Assembly (NCBI GenBank): GCA_020846875.1
Contig: JADLDB010000131.1
Coordinates: 1 to 53,533, forward strand
Direction of reading: 5' to 3'
DNA from: Myxococcales bacterium
GTDB lineage: Bacteria; Myxococcota; Myxococcia; Myxococcales; Myxococcaceae
DNA: 53,533 nt
In this document: piece by piece, positions 7,711 through 32,795 of the stretch
Position numbering within the stretch: the stretch's first letter is position 1
How the letters are laid out: each line of letters starts with the position of its first letter
Notes under the pieces: generated by a model
What the model saw: the letters and a program-made list of their open reading frames with translations, nothing else
Told to the model about the DNA's origin: nothing
The model's database searches: none
Made by a program: the position numbers and the translations under genes

Positions 7711-8561
7711 TGCTCCGCGCGCTCGTGCTCCTCTGTGTGGCGCTGGGCCTCGCCGCCTGCCGCTCCTCCGTCAACCCGGACCAGGGCCGCTTCTCCTGCG
7801 CCGAGGACAAGGACTGCGGCACCGGCTGGGAGTGCCGGCCTCAATTCTCAGGCGGCGGCCTCTGCTTTCGCGAAGGCGAGTGCGTCGACCTCGAGACCTG
7901 CAACGGCTCGGACGAGAACTGCGACGGCCGCACCGACGAGGCCTTCCCCGAGCAGGGCAACGCCTGCCTGACCAACGAGCTGGGCGAGTGCGCCGCCGGC
8001 ACCGTCACCTGCGTGGTGGGCGCGCTGAGCTGCGCCAGCGCGAAGGATCCTTCGGCCGAGCTGTGCAACGGCCTCGACGACGACTGCGACGGGATGACCG
8101 ACGAGACGTTCGACTTCACCTCCGACGAGATCCACTGCGGCGGCTGCTTCCGCCCCTGCGACGCCGGCACGGCCTGCCTGGCCGGCGCCTGCGACGAGAC
8201 CGCCTGCGACGACGGCCAGGACAACGATCTCGACGCGCTCACCGACTGTGAGGACGAAGGCTGCTTCAACCAGCCCTGCCCGACGCCCATGCCCCCCACC
8301 TGGCGCTGCGGGGCGGTGGTGCCCGACGGCGGCGTGGACGGGGGCGTGCTCGACACGGACGCGGGACTGCCCGACGGCGGCGCGGATGGCGGCGTCGACG
8401 GGGGCCTCGTGCGCGGGTGCTTCCCTCCTGAGTCCGACTGCGCCAACCTCTTCGACGACGACGGCGACGGGCTGACCGACTGCGCCGATCTCGACTGCGA
8501 CGGGCGCACCTGCTTCAGCGGAACGCAGTGCGCCGCTCGCGCCTGCCCCGGTCCGGGATAG
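7710..8561 (+). CDS. Lipoprotein with MopE-type putative metal-binding repeats
   Basis: 283 residues. The N-terminus MLRALVLLCVALGLAAC is a lipoprotein signal with lipobox LAAC (Cys17). Cys/Asp-rich repeats include CNGSDENCDGRTDE and CNGLDDDCDGMTDE, matching the putative metal-binding motif named after the Methylococcus MopE protein, and two looser ones, CDDGQDNDLDALTDCEDEGC and CANLFDDDGDGLTDCADLDC. A DGG-rich linker (VPDGGVDGGVLDTDAG and onward) lies between them, a composition typical of myxobacterial surface proteins. Calcium binding is plausible from the Asp pattern. The start overlaps the upstream stop. Function is unknown beyond probable surface attachment. Confidence 0.8.
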   Translation: MLRALVLLCVALGLAACRSSVNPDQGRFSCAEDKDCGTGWECRPQFSGGGLCFREGECVDLETCNGSDENCDGRTDEAFPEQGNACLTNELGECAAGTVTCVVGALSCASAKDPSAELCNGLDDDCDGMTDETFDFTSDEIHCGGCFRPCDAGTACLAGACDETACDDGQDNDLDALTDCEDEGCFNQPCPTPMPPTWRCGAVVPDGGVDGGVLDTDAGLPDGGADGGVDGGLVRGCFPPESDCANLFDDDGDGLTDCADLDCDGRTCFSGTQCAARACPGPG

Positions 8562-8584
8562 CCCCATGGAATAGGTGTGCCACA

Positions 8585-9868
8585 ATGCGATCGCTCATGA
8601 GCCACCACCGTCTCCGCTGCAGCGCCGTGGTCTTCTGCTTCGCCGCCGCGGCGCAGGCTCAGGTGCCCTTCACCGTGGAGACCGAGGCGATCCCCACGGC
8701 CACCGCCGGAGACCTCGCCATCGTCGTCGACCGCAGCGATGCCGGCCACCCGCCGATGATCGCCGCGGGGGACCCGATCCAGAACGGGCTGTACGTCTAC
8801 CACCTCGACGGCGGGCTCTTGCAGGTCGTCCCCTACGGCGCGATGCGCGGCGTGGACTCCCGCACCGACCTGGTGTTTCAGACTGCTCCCGCCACCCTCG
8901 TCGCCGCCGCGGCCGCCATCACCCAGGAAGTCGTGTTCGGCGCCCCGGTCGATGGGGGCCTCCTCGACGTCACCAGCGTGCCGGTGCAGGTCCCCACGGC
9001 GTCGGCGCTCACCCTCCATCGTCGGGCCAACGGACAGTTGGAGCTCATCGCCGATGACTCCGCCGGCAACCTGCACCGCTTCTCCGTGGACGACGACGGC
9101 GCAGGCAAGGTGGTGGGTACGAGCACCGGCAACCTGCAGCTCCCGGGCGTGCCTTCCGCGCTGGTCGTCGACGACCGCTCAGGGACGATGTACGCCGCCA
9201 TCCCCAACTCGGGCGTCTTCCGGGTGGGCCTGGCCCTGGGCTCCGTCGACTTGATCGTCCCGATGGATGGCGGGCAGTTCAACGGGCTGGTGGCGGGGCT
9301 CGCCTTCTACCCGCTCTTCGACGGGGGCGGCTTGCTGCTCACCACCGTCCCCGCCCTCGACGAGGTGACGGTGCACGAGCTGGCCGGCCCAACGGCGGCC
9401 ACCTACCTGACGCGCTTCACCGTCGAGCGCGGAGCCGAGGTGGTGCGCCAGCCGCGGCACGTGGACGTGGTCCCCAACCGGCTCCCCGGCTTCGACGCCG
9501 GCCTCTTCGTCATCCACGACACCGCGGGCGCCAACTACAAGCTGGTCCCGTGGGAGGTGCTGGCGAGCTCCACCCCGGTGCGGCTGCCCATTCACGTCCC
9601 AGAGGACTTCGGGCTCGACGCCGGGCTCCCCGACGCGGGGCAGGGTGACGGAGGAGAAGTGTTCGCCGATGCCGGTGCGGGCGACGGCGGCCTGATGGAC
9701 GGAGGGCGCCCCGATGGCGGTGGCGGCTCCGGCGGCTCCGGCGGGCCGGGGCCCCAGCCCGTCGAGGAAGGCTGTCACTGCAGTCAGGTCGATCCCTTGT
9801 TCTTCCCGGCCCTCTGGGGCCTGTGGATGCTCGCCAGGAGCCGGCGCCGCCGGACAGGAGACTCATGA
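8585..9868 (+). CDS. Phytase-like beta-propeller surface protein with MYXO-CTERM tail
   Basis: 427 residues, signal peptide ending AAAAQAQ. AIVVDRSD, GLYVYHLDGGLLQVVPYGAMRGVD and VDDRSGTMYAAIPNSGVFRV line up with blades of Bacillus-type beta-propeller phytases (LYVYDLDG, NNVDVR, VDDE-G-LYI-EED-GIWKY). The acidic EED patch that binds calcium and phosphate in those enzymes reads IPN here, so activity may be lost or altered. Residues about 345-390 are DGG/DAG-rich, followed by EEGCHCS, a hydrophobic stretch (LFFPALWGLWML) and ARSRRRR: a MYXO-CTERM sorting signal. Two ATGs (8585, 8597) are possible starts. The stop overlaps the 5'-nucleotidase start (ATGA). Neighbours suggest organophosphate use. 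Confidence 0.7.
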   Translation: MRSLMSHHRLRCSAVVFCFAAAAQAQVPFTVETEAIPTATAGDLAIVVDRSDAGHPPMIAAGDPIQNGLYVYHLDGGLLQVVPYGAMRGVDSRTDLVFQTAPATLVAAAAAITQEVVFGAPVDGGLLDVTSVPVQVPTASALTLHRRANGQLELIADDSAGNLHRFSVDDDGAGKVVGTSTGNLQLPGVPSALVVDDRSGTMYAAIPNSGVFRVGLALGSVDLIVPMDGGQFNGLVAGLAFYPLFDGGGLLLTTVPALDEVTVHELAGPTAATYLTRFTVERGAEVVRQPRHVDVVPNRLPGFDAGLFVIHDTAGANYKLVPWEVLASSTPVRLPIHVPEDFGLDAGLPDAGQGDGGEVFADAGAGDGGLMDGGRPDGGGGSGGSGGPGPQPVEEGCHCSQVDPLFFPALWGLWMLARSRRRRTGDS

Positions 9869-16029: not shown

Positions 16030-16356
16030 ATGATAGGGGAAACGTCGGCGCCGAGGGCCAGCGTCACCGTCCTGCTGACGCAGATCCCTCGGGTGCACCC
16101 GGAGACGGCCGTGTCGAAGGTGGGCGGCCGGTGGATGGCCGCCACCCCAGACGAGCGGTTGCATACCTTCGAGGACGCCGACGGCGTGGTGTCGGAGGTG
16201 GGCGAGCGGATTGTTGAGTTGGTGGACGGGTGTCGAAGCGTGGGGGCGATCGTCGAGGCGCTGGTGGAGGAGTTCGAAGTGGGCCGCGACCAGGCCGAGG
16301 CGGACACGCTGCAGTTCATCGGGTTGTTGGTTCAGAAGCAGGTGCTGGTGGTGTAG
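16030..16356 (+). CDS. PqqD-like RiPP recognition element protein
   Basis: 108 residues. HPETAVSKVGGRWMAATPDERLHTFEDADGVVSEVGERIVELVDG, then VGAIVEALVEEFEV and a Leu-rich final helix ending VQKQVLVV, fit the PqqD fold: three strands and three helices that bind leader peptides of ribosomally made, modified peptides. ATG at 16030 was preferred; an ATG at 15946 in frame would add an unrelated N-terminus. It lies 45 bp before the giant lipoprotein gene and in the same direction as the Cys-rich peptide gene at 21.8 kb. No radical-SAM or other maturase gene is in the window. Family assignment is good; a link to RiPP synthesis is inference. Confidence 0.75.
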   Translation: MIGETSAPRASVTVLLTQIPRVHPETAVSKVGGRWMAATPDERLHTFEDADGVVSEVGERIVELVDGCRSVGAIVEALVEEFEVGRDQAEADTLQFIGLLVQKQVLVV

Positions 16357-16401
16357 GTGAATGCCGGACAGGGCTTTGCGGCACAGAGGGAGGACGTGGC
16401 A

Positions 16402-19400
16402 ATGGTGCGAGGAAGCATGACCAGGTGGGGGCTGGCGGTGTTGGCGGCGGCGGCCGGGCTGACGGGGTGCAACTGCGGCCAGTCGACGGTCGAGTGCACC
16501 GACGTGACGGTGAGCTTCGTGTCGCCGACGAACGGGGCCCAGGTGGTGTCGCCGTTCGACGTGGAGATTCGCGCGGCGGACTCGACGGGCGTGGCGTACA
16601 AGTACGACACGGCGACGCTGACCAGCGACAACTTCTCGGCGAACGGCGTGGTGTCGGACGCCACGGCGCACTTCAACGGGGTGCAGTTGCCGGGCGGGCC
16701 GCACGAGCTGACCGCGACGATCGTGAAAGACTCCTGCACGCGGACCGCGAAGATTGACGTGACGGTGCGGACGGAGACGTGCACCACTCCCGCGGTGACG
16801 GCGGTGGCCTTCCCCCAGGACACGAGCAACGACGGCATTCTCAGCGCGGCCGAACTGCCTTCGGGGACCAACCTGCAGGTGCGGGTGACGGCGGAGTGCA
16901 CGACGGGCGTGCAGGTGCAGATCAAGCGCGGCGCCACGGTGGTGGGCGGGCCGGCGGCGTTCTCCAACGGGGTGGCGACGGTGGCGCTGCCCACGCTGCC
17001 GGACTCGGACTCGGCGACGTACGACCTGACCGCGGAGCTGCTGCAGGGCGGCGCGCCGGTGGGCCAGCCGGGGGCGGGGAGCATTCGGGTCGAGCGGGCC
17101 TTGCCGCAGTGCCAGAACACGACGGTAGCGGTGCAGGGCCCGCTGCAAGGCGGCGCGGGCGCGATGCACCCGCTCCTGGGGACCGGCGTCACCACGGGCG
17201 TGTCGGCGGAGTTCCGGCTGGACGGCGCGCAGGCGATGACGTCCACCCCGTCGATGGGGATGGTGTCGGCGACGTGGAACGTGCCGAAGACGGGCGAGAC
17301 GACGTACGCGGTGGAGCTGCGCTGCACGGACAACTTCGGGAACGTGGCGACGGACACGCACATGGTGCGGGTCGATTACCTGGCGCCCACCGTGATGATC
17401 ACCCAGCCGGCGACGAACCCGGACGGCGGGGCGACGCAGGTGACGAACAGCCCGGTGACGGTGTCGGTAATGACCAACGCGGAGAACGGCTCGCAGGCGT
17501 GCGCCTTCCGCGTGCAGGCGACGACGCGGACGCCGGCGGGGTGTGGGATGGTGAACGGCGGCGTGGCGACGGTGCCGGTCGATCTTCCGCTCGACGGGGC
17601 GTACACCATCGAGGTGGAGGTGACGGACCTCGCGGGGAACCTGGGGACCGGGAGCGTCGGCATCGCTGCGGTGCTCGCGGGCTGCGGGCTGGGCTTCACG
17701 AGGCCGCCGGCGTGCCCGGCGTTGATCACCGCGGCGCAGGTGAACAATGGCGTGTACTCGTTCCAGACGCAGAGCAATGTGTCGTGCTCCGGCCAGACCG
17801 TGCGCCTGTCGATGCAGACGGTGTCGGCGGACGGCGGCGTCGGCGCGCCGACGGGGGTGGGGACCGGGACGATCGCGGCCAGCGGGCAGGCGAACATTCT
17901 CGGGACGGTGGCCAGCGGCGAGTACGTCTACACGGCGGAGGTTGACAACCTGGGCGCGGACGCCGGGGTGAGCCGGGCGAGCTGTGACGTGACGGTCGAT
18001 CTCGACGGGCCGGTCATCCAGAGCCCGACCGTCCCGACAGGCCAGTCCTACGCGACCATCAACGTCGCTCAAGACACCCAGCCGGGCACTCCTGGAGCCC
18101 AGCGGCTGCTGCAGTTCTCCGCGCGAGTACCGGCGGGTGGGCGGGTGGATGTGTGCACCACTCAGGCGGTTGATCCGGACACCATGCAGCAGCGCAGCAC
18201 CTCGGCGGCCTGCGGTCCCGGGTGGTACGTGCTGCAGGCGAACGTGAACTCTCCGGCGAGCGGGTTCACCTTCAGCGAAGGCCAGTACTCGATCAAGATC
18301 GTAGTCGTTGGTGGTGGAACGACCGTCGAGTCGCTCCCCGTCCCGCTCCTCGTCGACGTGACGCGGCCGTGTGTCCGGAAGGTGATGAGTCCCTGGCCGC
18401 AGGACACGGCTGCTCCAATGGGTGCGCTCAACCTCGTGGAGCTGGGAACCAACGCCCCACGCCTGCAGTTTCAGTTGGATCCGGCGTGTAAGGACGTCGA
18501 CACCACGACGCTCTCCGCGACGAGTCCGGTGGTCGTCAGGAACATCGTGAGCGGCCTGCCGACGGGCTCGTTCAACCTGGCTGCGGATGCGTCCTTCGCC
18601 TCGGGTACGTACACGGTGAATCTGACGCAGGGCGTGGCCAGCGAGCAGGACTACCAGTTCTTCGTGGAGCTCACCGACCTCGCGAACAACAAGAACCTGT
18701 ACGTGGGGGGCGCGACCGACCCGGCACGTCACGATGTACGGATCGACAAGGCGGCGCCGACTTGCGACATCGTCGACCCCTCCGCTTCGCAGACGCTGCT
18801 GGGCCAGGCGCAGGTGCCCGGAGGCCAGTTCAACGTCACGGTGGGGACCTCTTCCGACGTGCCGATGAACGGCATCAGCGTGACGCTGGCGGGACCGACC
18901 ACCACCACGCGGGCCATCACTCCCGCGGCGCCGGCCTACCAGGCCTCCACGGCCTTCAACGTGACCGGCACCAACAACTGGACCGTGTCGTCGACCTGCA
19001 CCGACGTGGCGGGCAACCCCACGGCGGCGATGAGCCGGTCGCTGACCATCGATCTCGATGCGCCAACCTGCGCCATCGTCGCGCCGACCAACACCATGCC
19101 GTACTCGGTGAACCAGATTCAGACGACGCTGAACGTGACGGGCGCCGAGGGCCGAATGGTGACGTGCACCACCAACGGCACGCCGCTGACTCCCGCGCTG
19201 CTCGTCTCTGGCGGGGTCGCGACGCACCTGCTCACCTATCCAAATGGCACCCAGACGGTGGCGTGCAGCCTGACGGACGCGGCTGGTAATGCCGGCTCCT
19301 GCTCGGTGCTGGGCGTGGTGGTCAACTCCACGGCCTGTGCGCTCAACCTGACCAGCACCGCGACGACGGCGTCGGGCTTCTGGCACAACCGCACGAATAC

Positions 19401-21765
19401 CGGGAACCTGACGGCGAACACCGGTACGGCCGACGTGGCGGTGAACACGCCGGACTGCGGTGCGATGAAGACGGTGACGCTGCAGCGGATGGTGCCGACC
19501 ATGGGCGCGCCGACTTCGACGATGACGAACGCGATGGGTAACGCCTCCTTCGCCGGCGTCGCGGTCGCCGATGGAGATCGCTGGGAGGTGCGGATCGACA
19601 ACGGGGCAGGCGTGCTGACGACCCAGTCGTTCCGGGTGGGGCTGGTGGCGCCCGCGGCGAGCGGCGTTCAGCTCGGCTTGTCCCCCGTGACGACGGGGAC
19701 GAACCTCTTCTTCGTGGCTGCCACGGGGAACCGGAACGTGGAGACGATGACCGCCGGTTATTTCGCGGACACCAACGCCGGGACCAACGGAGCGCAGTTC
19801 GACGCGGCGGTGAACGGGGTGACAGGCGCGCGCAAGTTCGGCCTCGATGGGACGGTGCAGCTCGTCTTCAAGGGCGCCGTCGTCAGCTCGCAGGCGGTGA
19901 CGACCGAGCCGCAGAGCTTCACCTTCGTGGGCTCGACGCTGCCGCACAATGACAGCGGGGCGTTCGAGGTGCGGGTGCTGGACACGGCCGGTAACTCGAC
20001 GTCGGTGCTCAACAACCCCACGGTCATCGACGTCATCGCTCCAGGCGCGCCAACGGTGACGCAGAGCCTGACCAACGCACGGGCCGCGCAGGTGACGCTG
20101 CAGTGGGCGCCGACCTACGACGACGGGATGACGATGTCGTCCGGCGGGCACGCGGGGTACGACGTGCGGTGGACCACCAGCTCGGTGCCGGGCAACAACG
20201 GGATGGCGACGAGTACGGACTACTTTGGCTCGTCGAGTTACCAGGACACGCTGAGCGCGTGGAGCGCGTCGAACATCAATCGGGTGCTCGACCTGCCGCC
20301 GTTGAATACGTACTTCATCGGCGTGCGGGCGCGGGACGAGGTGGGGAACTACTCGGCCTTCGCGGCGCCGACTGGCCTGGCCAACAACTGGACTCAGGTC
20401 ACTCTGGGGCCGATCTTGGGTGTCAGCTTCGGTCAGTCGGTCGTGGCTTCCGCGAGCCTGAACAACGACACCGTCGAGGACATCGTGGTGTCCGCGCCCA
20501 CCGCCGGCGGTGGCGGCGCCGTCTACGTGTACTACGGGAACGCAGGCTTCCCATCGCAGGCGACCTGCGCCGCCGGATGCCAGCAGCTGGTGCCCTCTGA
20601 CGCCACGGCCGGTCAGTTCGGCTCCGACCTGGGCGTGGGCGGAAACCTCGGCGACGTGGCGTCCGAAGGGAAGTCGGATCTCGTGGTGGGGCAGATCTGG
20701 ACCGGCGCCGGTTTCGGTGGGCGCGCGGTGATCTTCTTCGGCACGACCTCTGCGGCGAGCGTGTCGACCGCCAACTCCATCGAACTGCGTGGCGATGGGA
20801 CGAACCGGATCGGCAGCACGGCGCGGATCATCAGGGACATCGACGGGGATGGGTTGGACGAGCTGGCGCTCGCTGCCCCGAGCTTCAACTCCAACCAGGG
20901 ACGAGTCTTCATCTTCCGCGGTAGGACGCAGGCTCAGTGGGCCGCCGCTCGGACCGCGACTGACCCAACGACGATGGTGCCCTACATCCCGGTGTCTGCG
21001 AGTACGGCGAACTACGTGATTGACGGGCCGACGCCCCTCCTCGTCGCGAACGGCAACGCCTTTGGCCAGAACCGTTTCGGGTTCACCTCGGTCGGGGACA
21101 TCAACTCCGACACCACCCCGGACGTGGCCATCCCCATGTCGCGCTCGACCATCAACCGCTACCGGATTTTCTCCGGGGCAGCGTTGGCCGCGTCGTCCGG
21201 CACCATGCCCATGTCCGCCGCTACCTTCCTTCTGGAACTGTCGGAGACCGTCGGCACCAACAGCGCCGTCAACAGCGGACTGGGAGCGACTTCGGTGGGC
21301 GGGCGGGACCTGGTTGACTCGACGGCGCCGGATCTCGTGACGTCGTACAACGGCGCGGGCGGTGGCGGGCGCGTCTACGTCTACTCTTCGCCTGTGGCGA
21401 TGGGCACCGGCCAGCCGGCACCCATTGCCACCATCACGGGGCCGTTGACGTTCGGATTCCAGGTGTCGGCCGGGCAGGTCAACACGGCGGACACGCGAGC
21501 GGATCTGGTGGTGGGCCAGGGCCTGAGCACCGACAATGTGGGTTGGGTCGTGTACCAGCGAGCGGGTTCGGCCTTCGACGGCACTTCAGGGAGCCTGGGG
21601 ACCTCGCCTGCCTTCTGGGTGTCCCGGTTCGACGGGAACGTCATCTCTGGATCGACGAATACCAGCCTCGGCAAGTCGAACGGTGTGGCGGACATCGATG
21701 GCAACGGACAGGCAGATGTGGTTCTTTCCGATGACCGGGCGGGAACCGTGGTTATTTGGCGCTGA
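16402..21765 (+). CDS. Giant lipoprotein with Ig-like repeats, Fn3-like domain and FG-GAP propeller
   Basis: 1787 residues. ATG at 16402 has AGGGAGGA upstream and gives signal MVRGSMTRWGLAVLAAAAG with lipobox LTGC (Cys23). Residues about 30-1210 are tandem Ig-like beta units with recurrent ends such as VEVTDLAGNLG, STCTDVAGNPT, SLTDAAGNAGS and VLDTAGNSTS. A fibronectin-III-like unit lies at about 1220-1330 (VTLQWAPTYDDG, TYFIGVRARDEVGNYS). The last 450 residues carry integrin-type FG-GAP blades: NDTVEDIVVSAP, IRDIDGDGLDELALAAP, GDINSDTTPDVAIP and VADIDGNGQADVVLSDD. Such proteins are adhesive, calcium-dependent surface molecules. It sits between a PqqD-like gene and a small Cys-rich peptide gene 11 bp downstream. 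A 1472-codon antisense frame across it is a GC artefact. Confidence 0.85.
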   Translation: MVRGSMTRWGLAVLAAAAGLTGCNCGQSTVECTDVTVSFVSPTNGAQVVSPFDVEIRAADSTGVAYKYDTATLTSDNFSANGVVSDATAHFNGVQLPGGPHELTATIVKDSCTRTAKIDVTVRTETCTTPAVTAVAFPQDTSNDGILSAAELPSGTNLQVRVTAECTTGVQVQIKRGATVVGGPAAFSNGVATVALPTLPDSDSATYDLTAELLQGGAPVGQPGAGSIRVERALPQCQNTTVAVQGPLQGGAGAMHPLLGTGVTTGVSAEFRLDGAQAMTSTPSMGMVSATWNVPKTGETTYAVELRCTDNFGNVATDTHMVRVDYLAPTVMITQPATNPDGGATQVTNSPVTVSVMTNAENGSQACAFRVQATTRTPAGCGMVNGGVATVPVDLPLDGAYTIEVEVTDLAGNLGTGSVGIAAVLAGCGLGFTRPPACPALITAAQVNNGVYSFQTQSNVSCSGQTVRLSMQTVSADGGVGAPTGVGTGTIAASGQANILGTVASGEYVYTAEVDNLGADAGVSRASCDVTVDLDGPVIQSPTVPTGQSYATINVAQDTQPGTPGAQRLLQFSARVPAGGRVDVCTTQAVDPDTMQQRSTSAACGPGWYVLQANVNSPASGFTFSEGQYSIKIVVVGGGTTVESLPVPLLVDVTRPCVRKVMSPWPQDTAAPMGALNLVELGTNAPRLQFQLDPACKDVDTTTLSATSPVVVRNIVSGLPTGSFNLAADASFASGTYTVNLTQGVASEQDYQFFVELTDLANNKNLYVGGATDPARHDVRIDKAAPTCDIVDPSASQTLLGQAQVPGGQFNVTVGTSSDVPMNGISVTLAGPTTTTRAITPAAPAYQASTAFNVTGTNNWTVSSTCTDVAGNPTAAMSRSLTIDLDAPTCAIVAPTNTMPYSVNQIQTTLNVTGAEGRMVTCTTNGTPLTPALLVSGGVATHLLTYPNGTQTVACSLTDAAGNAGSCSVLGVVVNSTACALNLTSTATTASGFWHNRTNTGNLTANTGTADVAVNTPDCGAMKTVTLQRMVPTMGAPTSTMTNAMGNASFAGVAVADGDRWEVRIDNGAGVLTTQSFRVGLVAPAASGVQLGLSPVTTGTNLFFVAATGNRNVETMTAGYFADTNAGTNGAQFDAAVNGVTGARKFGLDGTVQLVFKGAVVSSQAVTTEPQSFTFVGSTLPHNDSGAFEVRVLDTAGNSTSVLNNPTVIDVIAPGAPTVTQSLTNARAAQVTLQWAPTYDDGMTMSSGGHAGYDVRWTTSSVPGNNGMATSTDYFGSSSYQDTLSAWSASNINRVLDLPPLNTYFIGVRARDEVGNYSAFAAPTGLANNWTQVTLGPILGVSFGQSVVASASLNNDTVEDIVVSAPTAGGGGAVYVYYGNAGFPSQATCAAGCQQLVPSDATAGQFGSDLGVGGNLGDVASEGKSDLVVGQIWTGAGFGGRAVIFFGTTSAASVSTANSIELRGDGTNRIGSTARIIRDIDGDGLDELALAAPSFNSNQGRVFIFRGRTQAQWAAARTATDPTTMVPYIPVSASTANYVIDGPTPLLVANGNAFGQNRFGFTSVGDINSDTTPDVAIPMSRSTINRYRIFSGAALAASSGTMPMSAATFLLELSETVGTNSAVNSGLGATSVGGRDLVDSTAPDLVTSYNGAGGGGRVYVYSSPVAMGTGQPAPIATITGPLTFGFQVSAGQVNTADTRADLVVGQGLSTDNVGWVVYQRAGSAFDGTSGSLGTSPAFWVSRFDGNVISGSTNTSLGKSNGVADIDGNGQADVVLSDDRAGTVVIWR

Positions 21766-21776
21766 CTGAGGGTTTC

Positions 21777-21959
21777 ATGAGCGAGAAGACGAAGGACCTC
21801 CGAGCGAAGAAGCCCTACGTGCCCCCGAGGACGCGGGAGAGTGCAGGCGCAGTGAAATCGGCGGTGTTGCTCGGGTGCACGGGACAGTTCGATTGTGGCA
21901 TCCACGGTTTCGATGGGTGCTGCCAACCAGACGAGGAGTCCTGCTTCGTCAATTGCTGA
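21777..21959 (+). CDS. 60-residue Cys-rich peptide with YxxP leader, candidate RiPP precursor
   Basis: ATG at 21777 is preceded by GAGGG and lies 11 bp after the giant gene. The N-terminal half is charged and contains KKPYVPPRTRESAG; Tyr14-x-x-Pro17 with a Gly at 24 is close to the YxxPxLxxxG leader motif bound by PqqD-like recognition proteins in lasso-peptide systems (Leu is Thr here and the Gly is one residue late). After GAVKSAVLLG the C-terminal 27 residues hold six Cys (34, 40, 48, 49, 56, 60) and end in Cys. That is a leader/core layout. The core lacks a clear lasso ring acceptor, so disulfides, thioethers or another modification are possible. The frame is short, so confidence rests on spacing, ribosome site and motif. 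Confidence 0.6.
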   Translation: MSEKTKDLRAKKPYVPPRTRESAGAVKSAVLLGCTGQFDCGIHGFDGCCQPDEESCFVNC

Positions 21960-22031: not shown

Positions 22032-23138
22032 GTGTCGCGTCCCTCCAGTGACAAGGCCGTCGGGGCACAAGGGCCGATCACTGCCGATCGCCTGTTCCTC
22101 GCGCTGCTGCTGGTCGCCTTCCCGGCGGCGGTCGCCTCGCACTTCTTCTTCCCCGGCACCAACACCTTCCTCCTCTGCTGCCTCGCGCTCATCCCGCTCG
22201 CGCGGCTGATGGGCGAGGCCACCGAGGTCATCGCGCACAAACTCGGCGCCGGCCTGGGCGGGCTGATGAACGCGTCCTTCGGGAACGCGGCGGAGTTGAT
22301 CATCGCCATCGCTGCGCTGCGCGAAGGGCAGATCGAGGTGGTGAAGGCCTCCATCACCGGGGCCATCCTGGGGAACATCCTCCTGGTGCTGGGCATGGCC
22401 ATCGTCGCTGGCGGCGTGCGCCGTGAGAAGCAAACTTTCAACGCCACCGCCGCCCTGTCCGGCTCCGCGATGATGTTCCTCGCCCTGGTCGCGATGACCA
22501 TTCCCGATCTCTTCCACGTCGCCCGCGGAGACGCCGCGCTGCCCGTGCTGCAGAAGATGTCCGTGGGCATCTCGGTGGTGCTGCTCTTCATGTACGCGCT
22601 GTCGCTGCTCTTCGCGCTGCGCACCCACCAGCACCTGTACGCCGCCGAGGACGAGGGCGTGGAAGAGGACCTCCCCAACTGGAGCCAGGCCAAGGCAGTG
22701 GGCGTGCTGCTCGGCGCCACCGTGGGAGTGGTGGTGATGGCCGAGTTCCTGGTGAAGGCCATCGAGCCCACCATCGAGAGCTTCGGACTCACCCACACCT
22801 TCATCGGCGTCATCGTCATCGCCATCATCGGCAACGCCGCCGAGCACTCCACCGCCATCCTGATGGCGCGGAAGAACAAGATGGACCTGGCGTTCAACAT
22901 CTCCTTCGAGTCCTCGAAGCAGATCGCTCTCTTCGTCGCGCCGGTCCTCGTGCTCCTCTCGATTCCGATGGGGCACCCGCTCACCCTGGAGTTCAGCCAC
23001 ATGGAGGTCGTCGGCATGGGCGTGGGCGTCGGCGCTGCGACGCTGATCGGGCTGGACGGCGAGTCCAACTGGCTCGAAGGGGCGATGCTGCTGGGGGTGT
23101 ACGCGATCCTCGCGGTGGCGTTCTTCTTCGTGCCGTGA
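22032..23138 (+). CDS. Calcium/proton antiporter (CaCA family, Cax type)
   Basis: 368 residues with about eleven hydrophobic helices. The two alpha-repeats typical of calcium/cation antiporters are seen: GLMNASFGNAAELIIAIAAL with KASITGAILGNILLVLG in the first half and VIVIAIIGNAAEHSTAILMARKNKMDLAFNISFESSKQIALF in the second. An acidic loop (AAEDEGVEEDLPN) separates the halves. It exports calcium in exchange for protons at the inner membrane. The only in-frame start with the full first helix is GTG at 22032. Its stop overlaps the GTG of the next gene by 4 nt, so the two transporters are coupled. Confidence 0.93.
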   Translation: MSRPSSDKAVGAQGPITADRLFLALLLVAFPAAVASHFFFPGTNTFLLCCLALIPLARLMGEATEVIAHKLGAGLGGLMNASFGNAAELIIAIAALREGQIEVVKASITGAILGNILLVLGMAIVAGGVRREKQTFNATAALSGSAMMFLALVAMTIPDLFHVARGDAALPVLQKMSVGISVVLLFMYALSLLFALRTHQHLYAAEDEGVEEDLPNWSQAKAVGVLLGATVGVVVMAEFLVKAIEPTIESFGLTHTFIGVIVIAIIGNAAEHSTAILMARKNKMDLAFNISFESSKQIALFVAPVLVLLSIPMGHPLTLEFSHMEVVGMGVGVGAATLIGLDGESNWLEGAMLLGVYAILAVAFFFVP

Positions 23139-24037
23139 AGCCGGCGCGAGAGGCGTGGTCGACGCGGTGGGGGCCTGACGCGGCGCTCCTCTTCATCACC
23201 GCGGTGTGGGGGGCCACCTTCGTCACCGTCAAGCGCGCGCTGGAGGACGCGGACACGTTCACCTTCCTCGCGCTGCGCTTTGGCCTGGGTGCCGTCGCAG
23301 CCGCGTGCCTGGCGGGGGGGGCGTTGCGCAGCCGTGCCGCCTGGCGAGGAGGGGTGGTGCTGGGCGTGCTGCTCTTCGGGGGCTACGCGCTGCAGACGTG
23401 GGGACTGTCCCTGACGACGCCTTCGCGCAGCGCGTTCCTCACCGGGTTGACGGTGGTATTCGTCCCCTTCGCGCAGCTGGCGATCTTCCGCGGTCGGCCG
23501 GGCGGGTGGGCGCTGGGAGGAGTGGTCCTCGCGGTAGTCGGCCTGGCGCTGCTCACGGGCGTGGAGTTTCGGAGCGGGCTGCCCGCGGGAGATCTGCTCA
23601 CCCTGGGATGCGCGGTCGTGTACGCCTTTCACATTGCCCTCACCGGGAAGTACGCCAGGCAGGCACCTCCGACGGCCCTGGTGACGGTGCAGCTGATAGT
23701 GACCGCGGGATTGGCCGCGGTGTGCATGCCGCTGGGGCCGATGCGGCTTCATTCCACGGCGGGCTTCTGGGGCGCGGTGGTGGTGACCGGCGTCGTGGCG
23801 AGCGCCGTGGCGATCTCGCTGCAGGCGTGGGCCCAGGCGAAGGCCAGCCCGGTGCGCGCCGCGTTGATCTTCTCCCTGGAGCCCGTCTTCGCCGCAGGGC
23901 TCTCCGCGGGGCTGGGGCAGGAGCGCCTGTCGGGAAGGGAAGTGATGGGGGGCGCGGTGATCATCCTCGGCGTGGTGGTGGGCGAGGTGGGCGCTGCCTG
24001 GCAGCGCGCGGACAGGGGGAGCGGCGGGAGCGAGTGA
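23135..24037 (+). CDS. EamA-type drug/metabolite transporter
   Basis: 300 residues, ten predicted helices in two EamA repeats (ALLFITAVWGATFVTVKRAL, GVLLFGGYALQTWGLSLTTPSRSAFLTGL; LLTLGCAVVYAFHIALTGKYA, AALIFSLEPVFAAGLSAGLGQERLSGREVMGGAVIILGVV). Start GTG overlaps the antiporter stop (GTGA). The substrate cannot be read from sequence. The stop TGA at 24035-24037 is the first triplet of a 9-bp tandem repeat. Confidence 0.9.
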   Translation: MKPAREAWSTRWGPDAALLFITAVWGATFVTVKRALEDADTFTFLALRFGLGAVAAACLAGGALRSRAAWRGGVVLGVLLFGGYALQTWGLSLTTPSRSAFLTGLTVVFVPFAQLAIFRGRPGGWALGGVVLAVVGLALLTGVEFRSGLPAGDLLTLGCAVVYAFHIALTGKYARQAPPTALVTVQLIVTAGLAAVCMPLGPMRLHSTAGFWGAVVVTGVVASAVAISLQAWAQAKASPVRAALIFSLEPVFAAGLSAGLGQERLSGREVMGGAVIILGVVVGEVGAAWQRADRGSGGSE

Positions 24038-24061
24038 GGGGGTTGAGGGGGTTGAGGGGGT
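24035..24061 (+). repeat. Perfect 3 x 9-bp tandem repeat
   Basis: The unit TGAGGGGGT occurs three times without mismatch, beginning at the transporter stop codon. It is G-rich on the plus strand and lies just before palindrome-like sequences in the 102-bp gap. Confidence 0.9.
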
Positions 24062-24074
24062 CGGGAGCGACTGA

Positions 24075-24110
24075 GAGTGCCGGAGTACCTGAGGGTGTCG
24101 GAGGATCCGT
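24075..24110 (+). repeat. Two degenerate REP-like palindromes
   Basis: gagtgccggagtacctgag (24075-24093) differs from the family consensus at a few stem bases. A partial copy gggtgtcggaggatccg (24093-24109) follows directly. They are the first copies seen from the left and lie between the transporter and nuclease genes. Confidence 0.55.
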
Positions 24111-24139
24111 CACCGCCCCTTCTCGGGTAGATCCTCGGC

Positions 24140-25117
24140 ATGCCGGTCGAGCTGCAGCGGGGCAGTCTGGTGATGCAGGGTGCCCCCCTCTGGTTTGACG
24201 CGAAGCGGCGCACGTCCCTGGCGTTCGTCTCCCACGCGCACACCGATCACATCGCCCCGCATGAGTGCGTCATCGCCACCCGGGAGACCCTCGCGCTGAT
24301 GGCGCACCGCCTCGGGCCGCTGAAGGCCACGCTGCCATTGGCGTATGGCGAGGCTGCGCAAGTGCATGGGCTCCGGGTGGAGCTCTTCCCGGCGGGACAC
24401 GTCCTCGGTGCGGCGCAGGTCCGGGTGACCCGGAGTGATGGCCATCGGGTGGCGTACACCGGTGATCTCTCGTTGGGGGAGGCGCTGACGGCCGCGCGGG
24501 CGGAGATCGTGTCCTGTGACACCCTGCTCCTCGAAGCCACCTTCGGTCACCCCCGGTACCGGTTTCCACCCCAGGAGCAGGTCTACGACCAGGTCGCCCG
24601 GTGGTCACGCAACCAACTGGCCGCCGGGGTGCAGCCCATCCTCCTCGCGTACTCACTGGGCAAGTCACAGGAGGCCATCCGCCAGCTTTGGGCCCGCGGT
24701 CTCCCCGTGACGGCGCACCCGGCGATTCACGCGGTGGCAGAAGTCTACGAGGGCCTCGGAGTACCCGTTGGCGCCCGCCTGTTCGATGGACACTTCCGCC
24801 CCGGGGAGGTCGGCCTCTTTCCTCCCTCCAGGCGGGGGGACCTGCAGGGTGCCGGAGTACCTGTGGCGACCGCGGTCCTGACTGGCTGGGCGCTCGAGCC
24901 CTGGGGCGCCCGGAGATCGGGTGCTGACGTGGCCTTCCCGGTTTCCGATCACGCGGACTTCCCGTCGCTCGTCGCATACGCGAGGGCTACCGGCGCGAGG
25001 GAGGTCATCACCGTCTACGGCTTCGCGGAGGACCTGGCCGAGGGCCTGAGGAGGGAAGGCCTCTTTGCCCGGGCGGCAACCGAAGCGGTCCAGATGGAAC
25101 TTCCGCTGCTGCTCTGA
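24140..25117 (+). CDS. MBL-fold beta-CASP nuclease-like protein
   Basis: 325 residues. The metallo-beta-lactamase motif SHAHTDH supplies His32, His34, Asp36 and His37. Further metal ligands lie in FPAGHVLGAAQV and YTGDLSLG, and a beta-CASP-type C-terminal part has LLAYSLGKSQEAIRQL and PVSDHADFPSLVAYA. This is the arrangement of the DNA-ligase-associated exonuclease family and CPSF-like RNA nucleases. No ligase or helicase partner lies beside it, so DNA versus RNA substrate is open. A palindrome copy at 24845-24863 lies inside the frame and encodes QGAGVPV between motifs. ATG at 24140 is the natural start. Confidence 0.8.
   Translation: MPVELQRGSLVMQGAPLWFDAKRRTSLAFVSHAHTDHIAPHECVIATRETLALMAHRLGPLKATLPLAYGEAAQVHGLRVELFPAGHVLGAAQVRVTRSDGHRVAYTGDLSLGEALTAARAEIVSCDTLLLEATFGHPRYRFPPQEQVYDQVARWSRNQLAAGVQPILLAYSLGKSQEAIRQLWARGLPVTAHPAIHAVAEVYEGLGVPVGARLFDGHFRPGEVGLFPPSRRGDLQGAGVPVATAVLTGWALEPWGARRSGADVAFPVSDHADFPSLVAYARATGAREVITVYGFAEDLAEGLRREGLFARAATEAVQMELPLLL
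24845..24863 (+). repeat. REP-like palindrome inside the nuclease gene
   Basis: cagggtgccggagtacctg; stem CAGG/CCTG around the conserved CGGAGTA core. It is in frame within the coding sequence (residues about 236-242). Confidence 0.5.
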
Positions 25118-25147
25118 CACAACCCGGACTTCGTCTCGTGAGGGAGC

Positions 25148-25609
25148 ATGGCCGAACCGTCCAAAGCGCTTCGTCAGGTGTTGGTCGCTTCCATCCAGGG
25201 GCTCACCGTGACGCGTCTGGAGGCCGCTGGAGTCGACGCGCTGGTGCTTGATGCAGGAGTGGTGGCTGCGGCGGGGCTCTTGCCGCATGAGAAAATCGAG
25301 GTGCTCAATCTCACCTCCGGCGCGCGGTTCGCGACGTCCCTGGGGATCAGTCGGCGGGCGCCTGGGGGCGTCGAGGTGGCGGGGCCTGCGGTGCACTTCG
25401 CCGCCGTGGGCGACGTCCTGGTGGTGTCGGCCTGGGCCTGGATGCGGGAGAAGGCCGCAACGAGGCACACGCCCAGGCTCGTCGCCGTAGATGCGCGGAA
25501 TCGCGTGGCTCGAGCCGCTCCTCGCGGGGACTCCGACACCCCGGAGGCTGCCCGCGGAGGCACCGACGCCTCGTCCGCGCGAACCGATGGTGGGCGGCGA
25601 GCTCGCTGA
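25148..25609 (+). CDS. PanD (aspartate decarboxylase)-like pseudoenzyme
   Basis: 153 residues; ATG with GAGGGAGC just upstream. Residues 10-115 follow PanD closely: VTRLEAAGVDALVLDAGVVAAAGLLPHEKIEVLNLTSGARFATSLGI, then VEVAGPAVHFAAVGDVLVVSAWAWM. PanD makes beta-alanine by self-cleaving at Gly24-Ser25 to create a pyruvoyl group. Here that pair aligns with Asp30-Ala31, so cleavage cannot occur. The active-site Lys9, Tyr58 and Asn72 align with Ser15, Ser64 and Ala78. All key residues are gone while the fold-defining core is kept, so a non-catalytic binding or regulatory role is likely. The last 40 residues are a low-complexity tail holding a palindrome copy. The stop overlaps the kinase start (TGATG), implying a joint function. 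Confidence 0.75.
   Translation: MAEPSKALRQVLVASIQGLTVTRLEAAGVDALVLDAGVVAAAGLLPHEKIEVLNLTSGARFATSLGISRRAPGGVEVAGPAVHFAAVGDVLVVSAWAWMREKAATRHTPRLVAVDARNRVARAAPRGDSDTPEAARGGTDASSARTDGGRRAR
25524..25542 (-). repeat. REP-like palindrome in the PanD-like C-terminal tail
   Basis: gcggggactccgacacccc, the reverse complement of the consensus (GGGGTGTCGGAGTCCCCGC). In frame it encodes RGDSDTP. Confidence 0.85.
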
Positions 25610-26379
25610 TGCGCGACGCGGTGCAGCTCTGCTGCGGGACTGGCCTCATCCGGGTCGATGCCTCGCTGGCCGAGATGTCGACGCCCCGCGTCCACTGGCG
25701 AAGCTTTCTCAATGGAGCTCGCGACCAGGCCCCGCTGTTGACGGTTCGCCGGCACGCCTCGCTGACCGGCCAGCCGGTGGAGGGGCCGCTGGGCCGCTGT
25801 GTCATTCAGCTGGGCGAGAAGACACTGGACGTCCAGGTGGAGGACGGACCTTTCCTCGGCGAGCTGGTGCTGCGGCTGGCCTGGTACGTCGTCACCACGC
25901 GCCTGGGGGGAGTGCTGGTCCACGCCTCCGGGATTGCGAATGCCCAGACGGCGATGATCGCCTGCGGGAAGAGCGGAGACGGAAAATCCACGCTCTCGCG
26001 GCTCTGCCGGGCGGGCGGACTGCGGTTGCTTTCCGATGAGGTGGTGCAGCTCTTCCCCGACGGCCGCGCCGGCGGGACGCCCTTCCAGTCCGACTTCGAC
26101 AATGTTGGCACTCCGGGGCTGGTCGACGCGCGGTACTTCGTGGCGCTCAAGAAGGCGGACCTGGAAGTGCTCGAGCCCTTGAATGGGACCGAGGCGGCGC
26201 AACTTGTCCTGGCGCAGTGCTTTTCGGTGGAGGAGCTGGCCTTGCCAAAGGTGGAGGTGCGTCGCCGACTCCTCGCGTTCCTGGGTCGAGTGGAGCTGCG
26301 CACGCTCGCGTTCCGCAAACACCCCGAAGTCGCCGGATTTGTTCGGGAAACGCTGCGGGGACTCGGACACCCCGCCTAG
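25609..26379 (+). CDS. HprK-related P-loop kinase
   Basis: 256 residues. A C-terminal HPr-kinase/phosphorylase-like domain shows strand LVHASGI, Walker A GKSGDGKSTLSRLCRAGG, and LLSDEVVQL in the position of the HprK acidic motif. The first 100 residues are a separate alpha/beta region with no clear match. HprK-like kinases outside phosphotransferase regulation occur in peptide-modification clusters, where PqqD-like proteins are common partners, but here the PqqD-like gene is 9 kb away. Translation is coupled to the PanD-like gene (TGATG). The last codons and the TAG stop lie within and beside a REP-like palindrome, so the natural C-terminus may have been altered. Confidence 0.75.
   Translation: MRDAVQLCCGTGLIRVDASLAEMSTPRVHWRSFLNGARDQAPLLTVRRHASLTGQPVEGPLGRCVIQLGEKTLDVQVEDGPFLGELVLRLAWYVVTTRLGGVLVHASGIANAQTAMIACGKSGDGKSTLSRLCRAGGLRLLSDEVVQLFPDGRAGGTPFQSDFDNVGTPGLVDARYFVALKKADLEVLEPLNGTEAAQLVLAQCFSVEELALPKVEVRRRLLAFLGRVELRTLAFRKHPEVAGFVRETLRGLGHPA
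26354..26375 (-). repeat. REP-like palindrome at the kinase 3' end
   Basis: tgcggggactcggacaccccgc, reverse orientation with one core change (GTGTCCGAG). It encodes the end of the kinase (GLGHPA), with TAG two bases beyond, and lies between convergent genes. Confidence 0.85.
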
Positions 26380-31427: not shown

Positions 31428-31772
31428 CGCAAAAAGCAGAGGGTGTCGGAGCACCCGCAAGAAGCTGAGAAGCACCCGCGCATCAGCCCCGCGTCGGTGG
31501 TCCTCTCGAGTTCCGAGAGCAGACTGGTGCATGCGTGCTCGTCCGGATTCCTCGAGCGTGTCGGCCGAAGTGAGACGCCTGGTCCCGCGCTCCACCCGTA
31601 CGTTTTGAGGCCTTCCGCCTGGCATCGCTCGTGCGATGGCTGCGCTCGCCGACGAAGGTGGTTGGCGGCGGAGCGGTGGCGTCGGTACGGCGGTGCGAGG
31701 AGGGCGGAGCGGACGGGGTCAGCATCCGTTCTCCTCGCGCCGGCTGGTTCACTCGAACTCTTGGGAGGCGTC
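31428..31772. other. 345-bp gap between PBP1A and the RAYT gene
   Basis: It holds the palindrome at 31441-31459, a half copy agcacccgcg near 31471, and a GC-rich stretch. The RAYT frame is open through the gap, but its translation there is Arg/Ser-rich and unlike the family, so it is taken as non-coding leader. No promoter was recognised. Confidence 0.5.
31441..31459 (+). repeat. REP-like palindrome upstream of the RAYT gene
   Basis: gggtgtcggagcacccgca. The stem is GGGTG/CACCC, so the base after GGAG co-varies with the left arm. It lies 14 bp after the PBP1A stop and 313 bp before the transposase start. Confidence 0.9.
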
Positions 31773-32795
31773 GTGGGCAGAACAATTCGGATGTATGGAT
31801 CAGAGGGCATCTACTTCGTCACGGCACGGGTCACGCAGGGGCGGTTGTTGATGCGCCCCTCCGTGATGGCAAACGAGGTGATCGGCGGGATCCTCGCCCG
31901 CGCGTGTCGTCATTTCGGGGTGAAGCTGCGCGGCTTCATCTTCATGTCGAACCACCTGCACCTCCTGGTGCGCGCGCAGGGGCGGGTGCTGTCGCAGTTC
32001 ATGCAGTTCCTCCTGGGCAACATCGCTCGGAAGGTTGGCCGGCTGCACGGCTGGAGTGGTCCCTTCTGGCAGCGGCGGTTCTCGTGCGAGCCCGTGCTGG
32101 ATCCCGAGGCCGAGCTGGGGCGGCTGCGCTACATCCTCTCGCATGGGGTGAAGGAAGCGCTGGTGGCGCGGCCGTCGGAGTGGCCGGGGCTCTCGTGCCT
32201 CAAGGCGCTGCTCGCTCAGGACGAGTCCTACCCCTTCTACAACTGGGACTGGCGGTGGAATCGTCCGGGGCTTCGGGGCCTGGATCCCTGGAACCGACGC
32301 CTCGTCGAGCAGGAGGTCCTGGTCGTGGAGCCGATCGGCGCGTGGAGGGAGTACAGCCCGCAGCGCCGTGCGGAGGTGGTCGGCGCCCTGGTCGATCAGA
32401 TCGCGGCCCAGTATTGGAGACCAGAGGTCAAGGTGCTGGGCGCGGCCGCGGTGCTGAAGCAGAACCCGCACAAGCGCGTCCCCCTTGAGCGGCGCTCTCA
32501 CCGCCCCCTGTGCCACGTGTCGTCCGTCCTGGTGTGGACTCAATGGATGGATCTCCACCGGGCGTTCCTGGCGGCCTACTTCGTGGCCTCCAAGGCCTTT
32601 CGCGGTGGCCAGCGGACAGTGGAATTCCCGCAGTGGGCCTTCCTGCCTCCCGACGCCCGCGCGAGTGAGCCGCCGAAACCGCAGCCTACCGCCTCAGGCT
32701 CGCCAGAGCCCGGGAGCAAGGCCGGTGTTCCGGTACACGTCTTTCACCCGCGAGACCGCGATGGAAGTGTCGCGGCCGGCGCCCTCGGGGAATGA
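31773..32795 (+). CDS. REP-associated tyrosine transposase (RAYT, Y1/HUH family)
   Basis: 340 residues from GTG at 31773 with GGGAGG 4 bases upstream. The fold matches IS200-like Y1 transposases: strand GIYFVTARV, helix NEVIGGILARACRHFGV, then FIFMSNHLHLLVRA with the HUH pair His61/His63. WSGPFWQRRF and LGRLRYILSHGVKEALVARPSEWPG follow; Tyr120 occupies the position of the catalytic Tyr of the YIxxNPV motif in Escherichia RAYT. Such enzymes are single-copy, not flanked by IS ends, and bind and cut REP hairpins. The C-terminal 200 residues are longer than in typical RAYTs, and the last 35 (after PPDARASEP) have weaker codon bias and overlap a convergent frame, so the end may be run-on. The surrounding palindrome family is the likely substrate. 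Confidence 0.88.
   Translation: MGRTIRMYGSEGIYFVTARVTQGRLLMRPSVMANEVIGGILARACRHFGVKLRGFIFMSNHLHLLVRAQGRVLSQFMQFLLGNIARKVGRLHGWSGPFWQRRFSCEPVLDPEAELGRLRYILSHGVKEALVARPSEWPGLSCLKALLAQDESYPFYNWDWRWNRPGLRGLDPWNRRLVEQEVLVVEPIGAWREYSPQRRAEVVGALVDQIAAQYWRPEVKVLGAAAVLKQNPHKRVPLERRSHRPLCHVSSVLVWTQWMDLHRAFLAAYFVASKAFRGGQRTVEFPQWAFLPPDARASEPPKPQPTASGSPEPGSKAGVPVHVFHPRDRDGSVAAGALGE

Follow-up and report, generated by a model that had tools for sequence, protein, structure and literature searches.

A Myxococcota operon encoding a leader-binding protein, a giant lipoprotein and a YxxP peptide resembles phosphorylated-peptide pathways

The closest described counterparts of the locus analyzed here are the LPP and bsf pathways, in both of which a RiPP recognition element (RRE) and a kinase act on a YxxP peptide. 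In the closer of the two, the Linear Polyphosphorylated Peptide (LPP) pathway (Popov et al. 2026, PMC13381572), described as confined to Bacillota and as having no known role, LppK polyphosphorylates core residue Ser3 and LppS, with its S29/H68/D93 triad, cleaves with the help of the RRE (PMC13381572). In the bsf lasso cluster of Bradymonas, BsfK phosphorylates Ser3 of the lasso precursor in a reaction accelerated by its RRE, and an FG-GAP protein that the authors took to have no part in the pathway lies next to the cluster (PMC10368454). A literature search, in which subscription papers were thinly covered, found no paper describing the myxobacterial system reported below.

The three-gene unit and its conservation

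The stretch of DNA analyzed (the window; 53,533 nucleotides) belongs to the 7.06-Mb genome of a Myxococcales bacterium (G000); its relatives that bear a name belong to Archangium and elsewhere in the Myxococcaceae. A sequence-only reading had proposed a RiPP-like unit of three genes, and their order, coordinates and spacing were confirmed in the ORFs, all three lying on the plus strand with intergenic gaps of 45 bp (PqqD-giant) and 11 bp (giant-peptide). The features considered were as follows:

16030..16356, + strand: PqqD-type RiPP recognition element (RRE), 108 aa (Pfam PF05402)
16402..21765, + strand: giant lipoprotein, 1787 aa (lipobox LTGC, FG-GAP repeats, propeller model)
21777..21959, + strand: precursor-like peptide, 60 aa (KKPYVPP leader motif, Cys-rich C-terminal half)
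22032..25609, + strand: cax, dmt, nuclease-like and panD genes between peptide and kinase, outside the system
25609..26379, + strand: putative HprK-like peptide kinase, 256 aa (TIGR04352-like match, invariant residues, AlphaFold2 fold)

The assignment of the first protein as a leader-binding PqqD type held (PF05402, E = 1.6e-11), and its profile A2 matched the solved lasso and LPP RREs TbiB1 (E = 1.6e-10), PbaB1 (9x90) and LppB (9x8z; E = 1.1e-5). Among 21 relatives residue F96 was invariant and position 92, Asp in the window protein, was D or E. The giant protein, which begins at ATG 16402, is a 1787-residue lipoprotein as proposed, with lipobox LTGC and FG-GAP repeats recognized by Pfam, and its Ig-like matches were weak. 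The protein has Ig-like and Fn3-like segments and, at its C-terminus, an integrin-alpha-like beta-propeller; an AlphaFold2 model of the last 620 residues reached a pLDDT of 83, and all PDB matches listed for the propeller were integrin alpha heads, at sequence identities of 14-18%.

The window peptide starts at ATG 21777 with GAGG six bases upstream, and the KKPYVPP motif (leader residues Y14 and P17) and six Cys within the C-terminal 27 residues were found as described earlier. At each readable relative locus the start of a 42-65-aa ORF falls between ~19 bp upstream and 32 bp downstream of where the giant gene ends; in many relatives its ATG overlaps the giant stop codon. The earlier reading had made conservation of the peptide frame and of YxxP decisive, and both were present: a basic-[YW]xxP motif ([KR]..[YW]xxP) occurred in 32 of the 32 peptides compared, against a mean of 2.4 and a maximum of 7 in shuffles, the choice among overlapping short ORFs having been guided by position with the motif visible. 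Position +5 was V, L or I in 30 of 32 peptides (Thr in the window peptide) and position +7 was S or T in 30 of 32. For the peptides of L035, L081 and L085 the start codon was not established, and the leading Met given for L035 is a placeholder. The conservation of a peptide in this position thus exceeds chance. Close peptide pairs, when pooled, differed at 7 synonymous and 7 nonsynonymous positions, a small synonymous excess (P ~0.05) that by itself is weak support for the frame. A broad YxxP-peptide regular expression applied over short loci was discarded because it returned mostly out-of-frame noise.

The six-Cys core was present in the window peptide as read previously; it did not prove to be a defining trait, as evidenced by Cys-free orthologues in other families. 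Cys number was lineage-specific (0-8 per peptide), the window clade having six in a pattern, Archangium-type loci two and the L036/L039 group none, and the cores of L157, L158, L164 and L169, which belong to other classes, were also Cys-free and ended in a GPFR/GPYR-type sequence. A rule pairing a second Cys beside the lipobox with Cys in the peptide was considered and dropped, since L086 and L037 break it; the Cys-free peptides of L036 and L039 do accompany giant proteins without CxC.

The three genes were conserved together and in the same order in the relatives' neighborhoods read, with the peptide at the giant end in all readable loci, and ctaB precedes the set in the window and often elsewhere. 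PqqD relatives were detected in 34 of 60 genomes by the PqqD search; the contig profile search used a closer subset of the 21-row alignment, the full 21 rows being too divergent. A profile of the giant C-terminus matched 40 of 98 relatives, every one of which also had this PqqD type (40/40), and the same profile found the giant protein in none of the 52 genomes lacking that type. In G025 and G071 the PqqD and giant genes lie on different contigs, each contig ending there. Carriers include A. lansinium and A. violaceum, and the set extends to other classes, where L157, L158, L164 and L169 have the giant protein, a YxxP peptide, an HprK-like kinase and a peptidase resembling signal peptidase I (SpI-like). 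The system is spread across Myxococcota, often as one operon, and the proposed RiPP-like unit stood, with leader-binding protein and YxxP motif conserved alongside the giant lipoprotein.

Kinase, peptidase and accessory enzymes

The earlier reading had also stated that no maturase lies alongside, which was contradicted by the HprK-like kinase gene 3.6 kb downstream of the peptide in the window. In most relatives the kinase gene directly follows the peptide and is itself followed by the peptidase gene and then the cax, dmt and nuclease genes; in the window the kinase comes after these genes and panD. Since the same genes also lie behind the operon in relatives, we regarded cax, dmt, the nuclease-like gene and panD as neighborhood rather than as part of the system. 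Farther along, a REP-associated IS200-like tyrosine transposase (NF047646-like) occupies window positions 31443-32795.

The window kinase matched TIGR04352 with E = 6e-9, a score that falls far short of the NCBIfam cut-off, and residues H105, G125-K126, T128 and D143-E144 were invariant among 20 sequences. Its AlphaFold2 model had a pLDDT of 95.8, and Foldseek matched it to PEPCK and HprK/P, with PEPCK first. From fold, residues and gene position we predict that this kinase acts on the peptide. Clades with split operons keep the kinase elsewhere (G004:C38, G025:C443, G035:C47), the g5 and g17 clades likewise carry kinase and peptidase elsewhere in the genome, and in L035 both domains form a single ORF. 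The SpI/S24-like peptidase had invariant S30, H68 and D86 in 14 aligned sequences, a triad of the type seen in LppS, many such peptidases carrying a fused C-terminal GNAT acetyltransferase domain; in the window genome it is unlinked (G000:C134:20257-20676), with Ser, His and Asp kept. The aligned peptidases lack an obvious membrane segment, which would place cleavage in the cytosol and leaves export of the peptide unexplained. Two SpI-like domains outside the 14-sequence alignment have Cys at the site of the Ser nucleophile (L157:2686-3738, GRCMSP; L035:7357-8514, GTCMWP), and a Myxococcus-type genome without the operon still has an SpI-GNAT gene (L098:9712-10653) in the syntenic position by the dmt and nuclease genes.

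The separation of kinase and peptidase from the peptide in the window clade, together with the gain of six patterned Cys in the core, would suit a different reading, in which the two enzymes are ancestral extras, PqqD is only a chaperone and the window peptide is an unphosphorylated, disulfide-bonded, Cys-rich secreted or surface peptide. We consider this unlikely, because nearly all window-clade genomes retain both enzymes with full catalytic residues and the leader motif is intact.

A radical SAM enzyme is added at L040 (with SPASM), L109 and L157. Combined with the lasso-like RRE and YxxP leader, and with the FG-GAP protein bordering the bsf cluster (PMC10368454), it would fit a lasso or a sactipeptide/ranthipeptide-type product whose rings or cross-links are made by an unlinked enzyme, with the kinase serving for secondary tailoring as in paeninodin or Bsf lasso peptides. 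That reading is improbable in view of the lasso B2 leader peptidase family PF13471, which had no match in G000, and of the genes read around the loci, among which there was no macrolactam (Asn synthase-like) cyclase; furthermore, some cores contain no Cys, and a radical SAM gene is missing from most loci of Myxococcaceae.

Proposed pathway and the giant lipoprotein

Our preferred reading, which we hold to be probable, is that of a RiPP-like system of Myxococcota that works like the LPP and phospholasso pathways and whose product acts with the giant lipoprotein. What the sequences show is the order of the genes, their co-occurrence, the leader motif, the catalytic residues and the predicted folds; phosphorylation, the order of steps, the cleavage site, export and the partnership with the lipoprotein are inferred. 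The PqqD RRE would bind the 60-mer through its [Y/W]xxP leader, and the HprK-like kinase would phosphorylate a Ser or Thr near the start of the core, perhaps, in the window clade, the Thr/Ser beside the first Cys in an LLxC[T/S] motif. The SpI/S24-like serine peptidase would then remove the leader. In many relatives the N-terminus so exposed may be acetylated by the GNAT domain that the peptidase carries, and at some loci the radical SAM enzyme may add a further change. Points that count against this reading are the lack of an exporter and an NTP-transferase gene among the genes read at the loci, the unlinked peptidase of the window genome and its relatives' missing membrane segment, and the low-scoring family matches of the kinase, with PEPCK ahead of HprK/P among solved folds. 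The core, moreover, differs greatly between lineages, which makes a single modification common to all of them uncertain.

The mature peptide would act with the giant outer-surface lipoprotein, contact probably being made at the latter's integrin-like propeller. A functional link between peptide and giant protein is likely given their position in the operon, the coupled start codons and their tight and strict co-occurrence. The overlap of peptide start and giant stop in many relatives, which suggests coupled translation, would also fit a scheme in which kinase and RRE have the giant lipoprotein or some other protein as their substrate, while the peptide, whose synthesis keeps pace with that of the lipoprotein, is a regulator such as a pseudo-substrate. 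We judge this very unlikely, since a signal peptide and lipobox stand in place of a YxxP leader in the giant protein and since the YxxP peptide is the target of both RRE and kinase in LPP and Bsf.

Within the phosphopeptide reading we tentatively suggest, as a possibility short of an even chance, that the phosphorylated RiPP is a dedicated ligand or bound cofactor of the integrin-like giant lipoprotein from the same operon; with the same tentativeness, such a surface adhesin or receptor would carry its own enzymatically modified peptide. This suggestion is also pointed to by a paralogous set, system B (L099:6668-12035, L106:7284-12587), found in Myxococcus- and Archangium-type genomes, in which the order is SpI - PqqD - lipoprotein - exported protein of ~1030 aa - YxxP peptide - HprK. 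The exported protein of system B, unrelated to the giant lipoprotein, ends in a PQQ/BamB-like beta-propeller, and the peptide of the set has the motif YE[AP]PA[IV]LWEQPFVALAQ; these enzymes are thus found twice in company with an exported protein that bears a propeller. Separately, a second PqqD locus of G000 (L045; G000:C59:205000-222017, at ~8272-9499) has PqqD followed by an HprK-like ORF and by a peptide that contains twin Arg, YAAP and four Cys (RREFFKRLLVLRYAAPLVATYSMKAFAQ...RCCDGDPPPCAPGQEPGIDC); an ORF for an exported protein lies beside it, and the locus may be a third set of RRE, kinase and peptide.

If the preferred reading is correct, the logic of a RiPP made with a kinase and an SpI-type peptidase would extend from Bacillota to Myxococcota, and the tie to a single surface protein would give a concrete handle on phosphopeptide function.

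Comparison with described systems

The likeness to LPP lies in a discrete lasso/LPP-type RRE, a short YxxP precursor with variable core, an HprK-like kinase in the cluster and an SpI-like Ser-His-Asp peptidase, without a lasso cyclase in either system. The two differ in that here the giant lipoprotein is obligate, the peptidase is often fused to GNAT and the hosts are Myxococcota. The LPP leader motif YxxPxVLxHQxIxFETxxS was not found in the 32 peptides, which have in common only [YW]xxPx[VLI] and lack HQxIxFET. An NTP-transferase (PF14907) was encoded in all 14 genomes and in none of the operon neighborhoods, and the genes read on either side of the operon in 14 relatives included no MsbA-like exporter. 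We therefore do not claim LPP membership, given the leader motif and the unlinked NTP-transferase.

With lasso, paeninodin and Bsf systems the locus shares the RRE, the YxxP leader and the HprK-like kinase; bsf, from a Deltaproteobacteria-class host, also lies beside an FG-GAP protein. Lasso membership was rejected because PF13471 had no match in G000. More distant likenesses were seen to the SynChlorMet cassette (TIGR04249-04251), in which ScmC matched 5 of the 20 kinases as an HprK-like protein and ScmE/ScmF resembled the L040 radical SAM enzyme, all matches lying far below cut-off and a radical SAM gene being absent from most loci here. The HprK-related kinase A system (TIGR04352) was similar to 17 of 20 kinases through partial matches below cut-off. 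Integrin alpha heads and FG-GAP surface proteins have the same beta-propeller fold, which is carried here by a bacterial lipoprotein. On the basis of the leader motif, the unlinked NTP-transferase and the missing lasso B2 peptidase, we class the system as an LPP-like variant rather than as LPP or lasso, and the Myxococcota set seems to be a variant, not described before, of the recently reported phosphorylated-peptide pathways.
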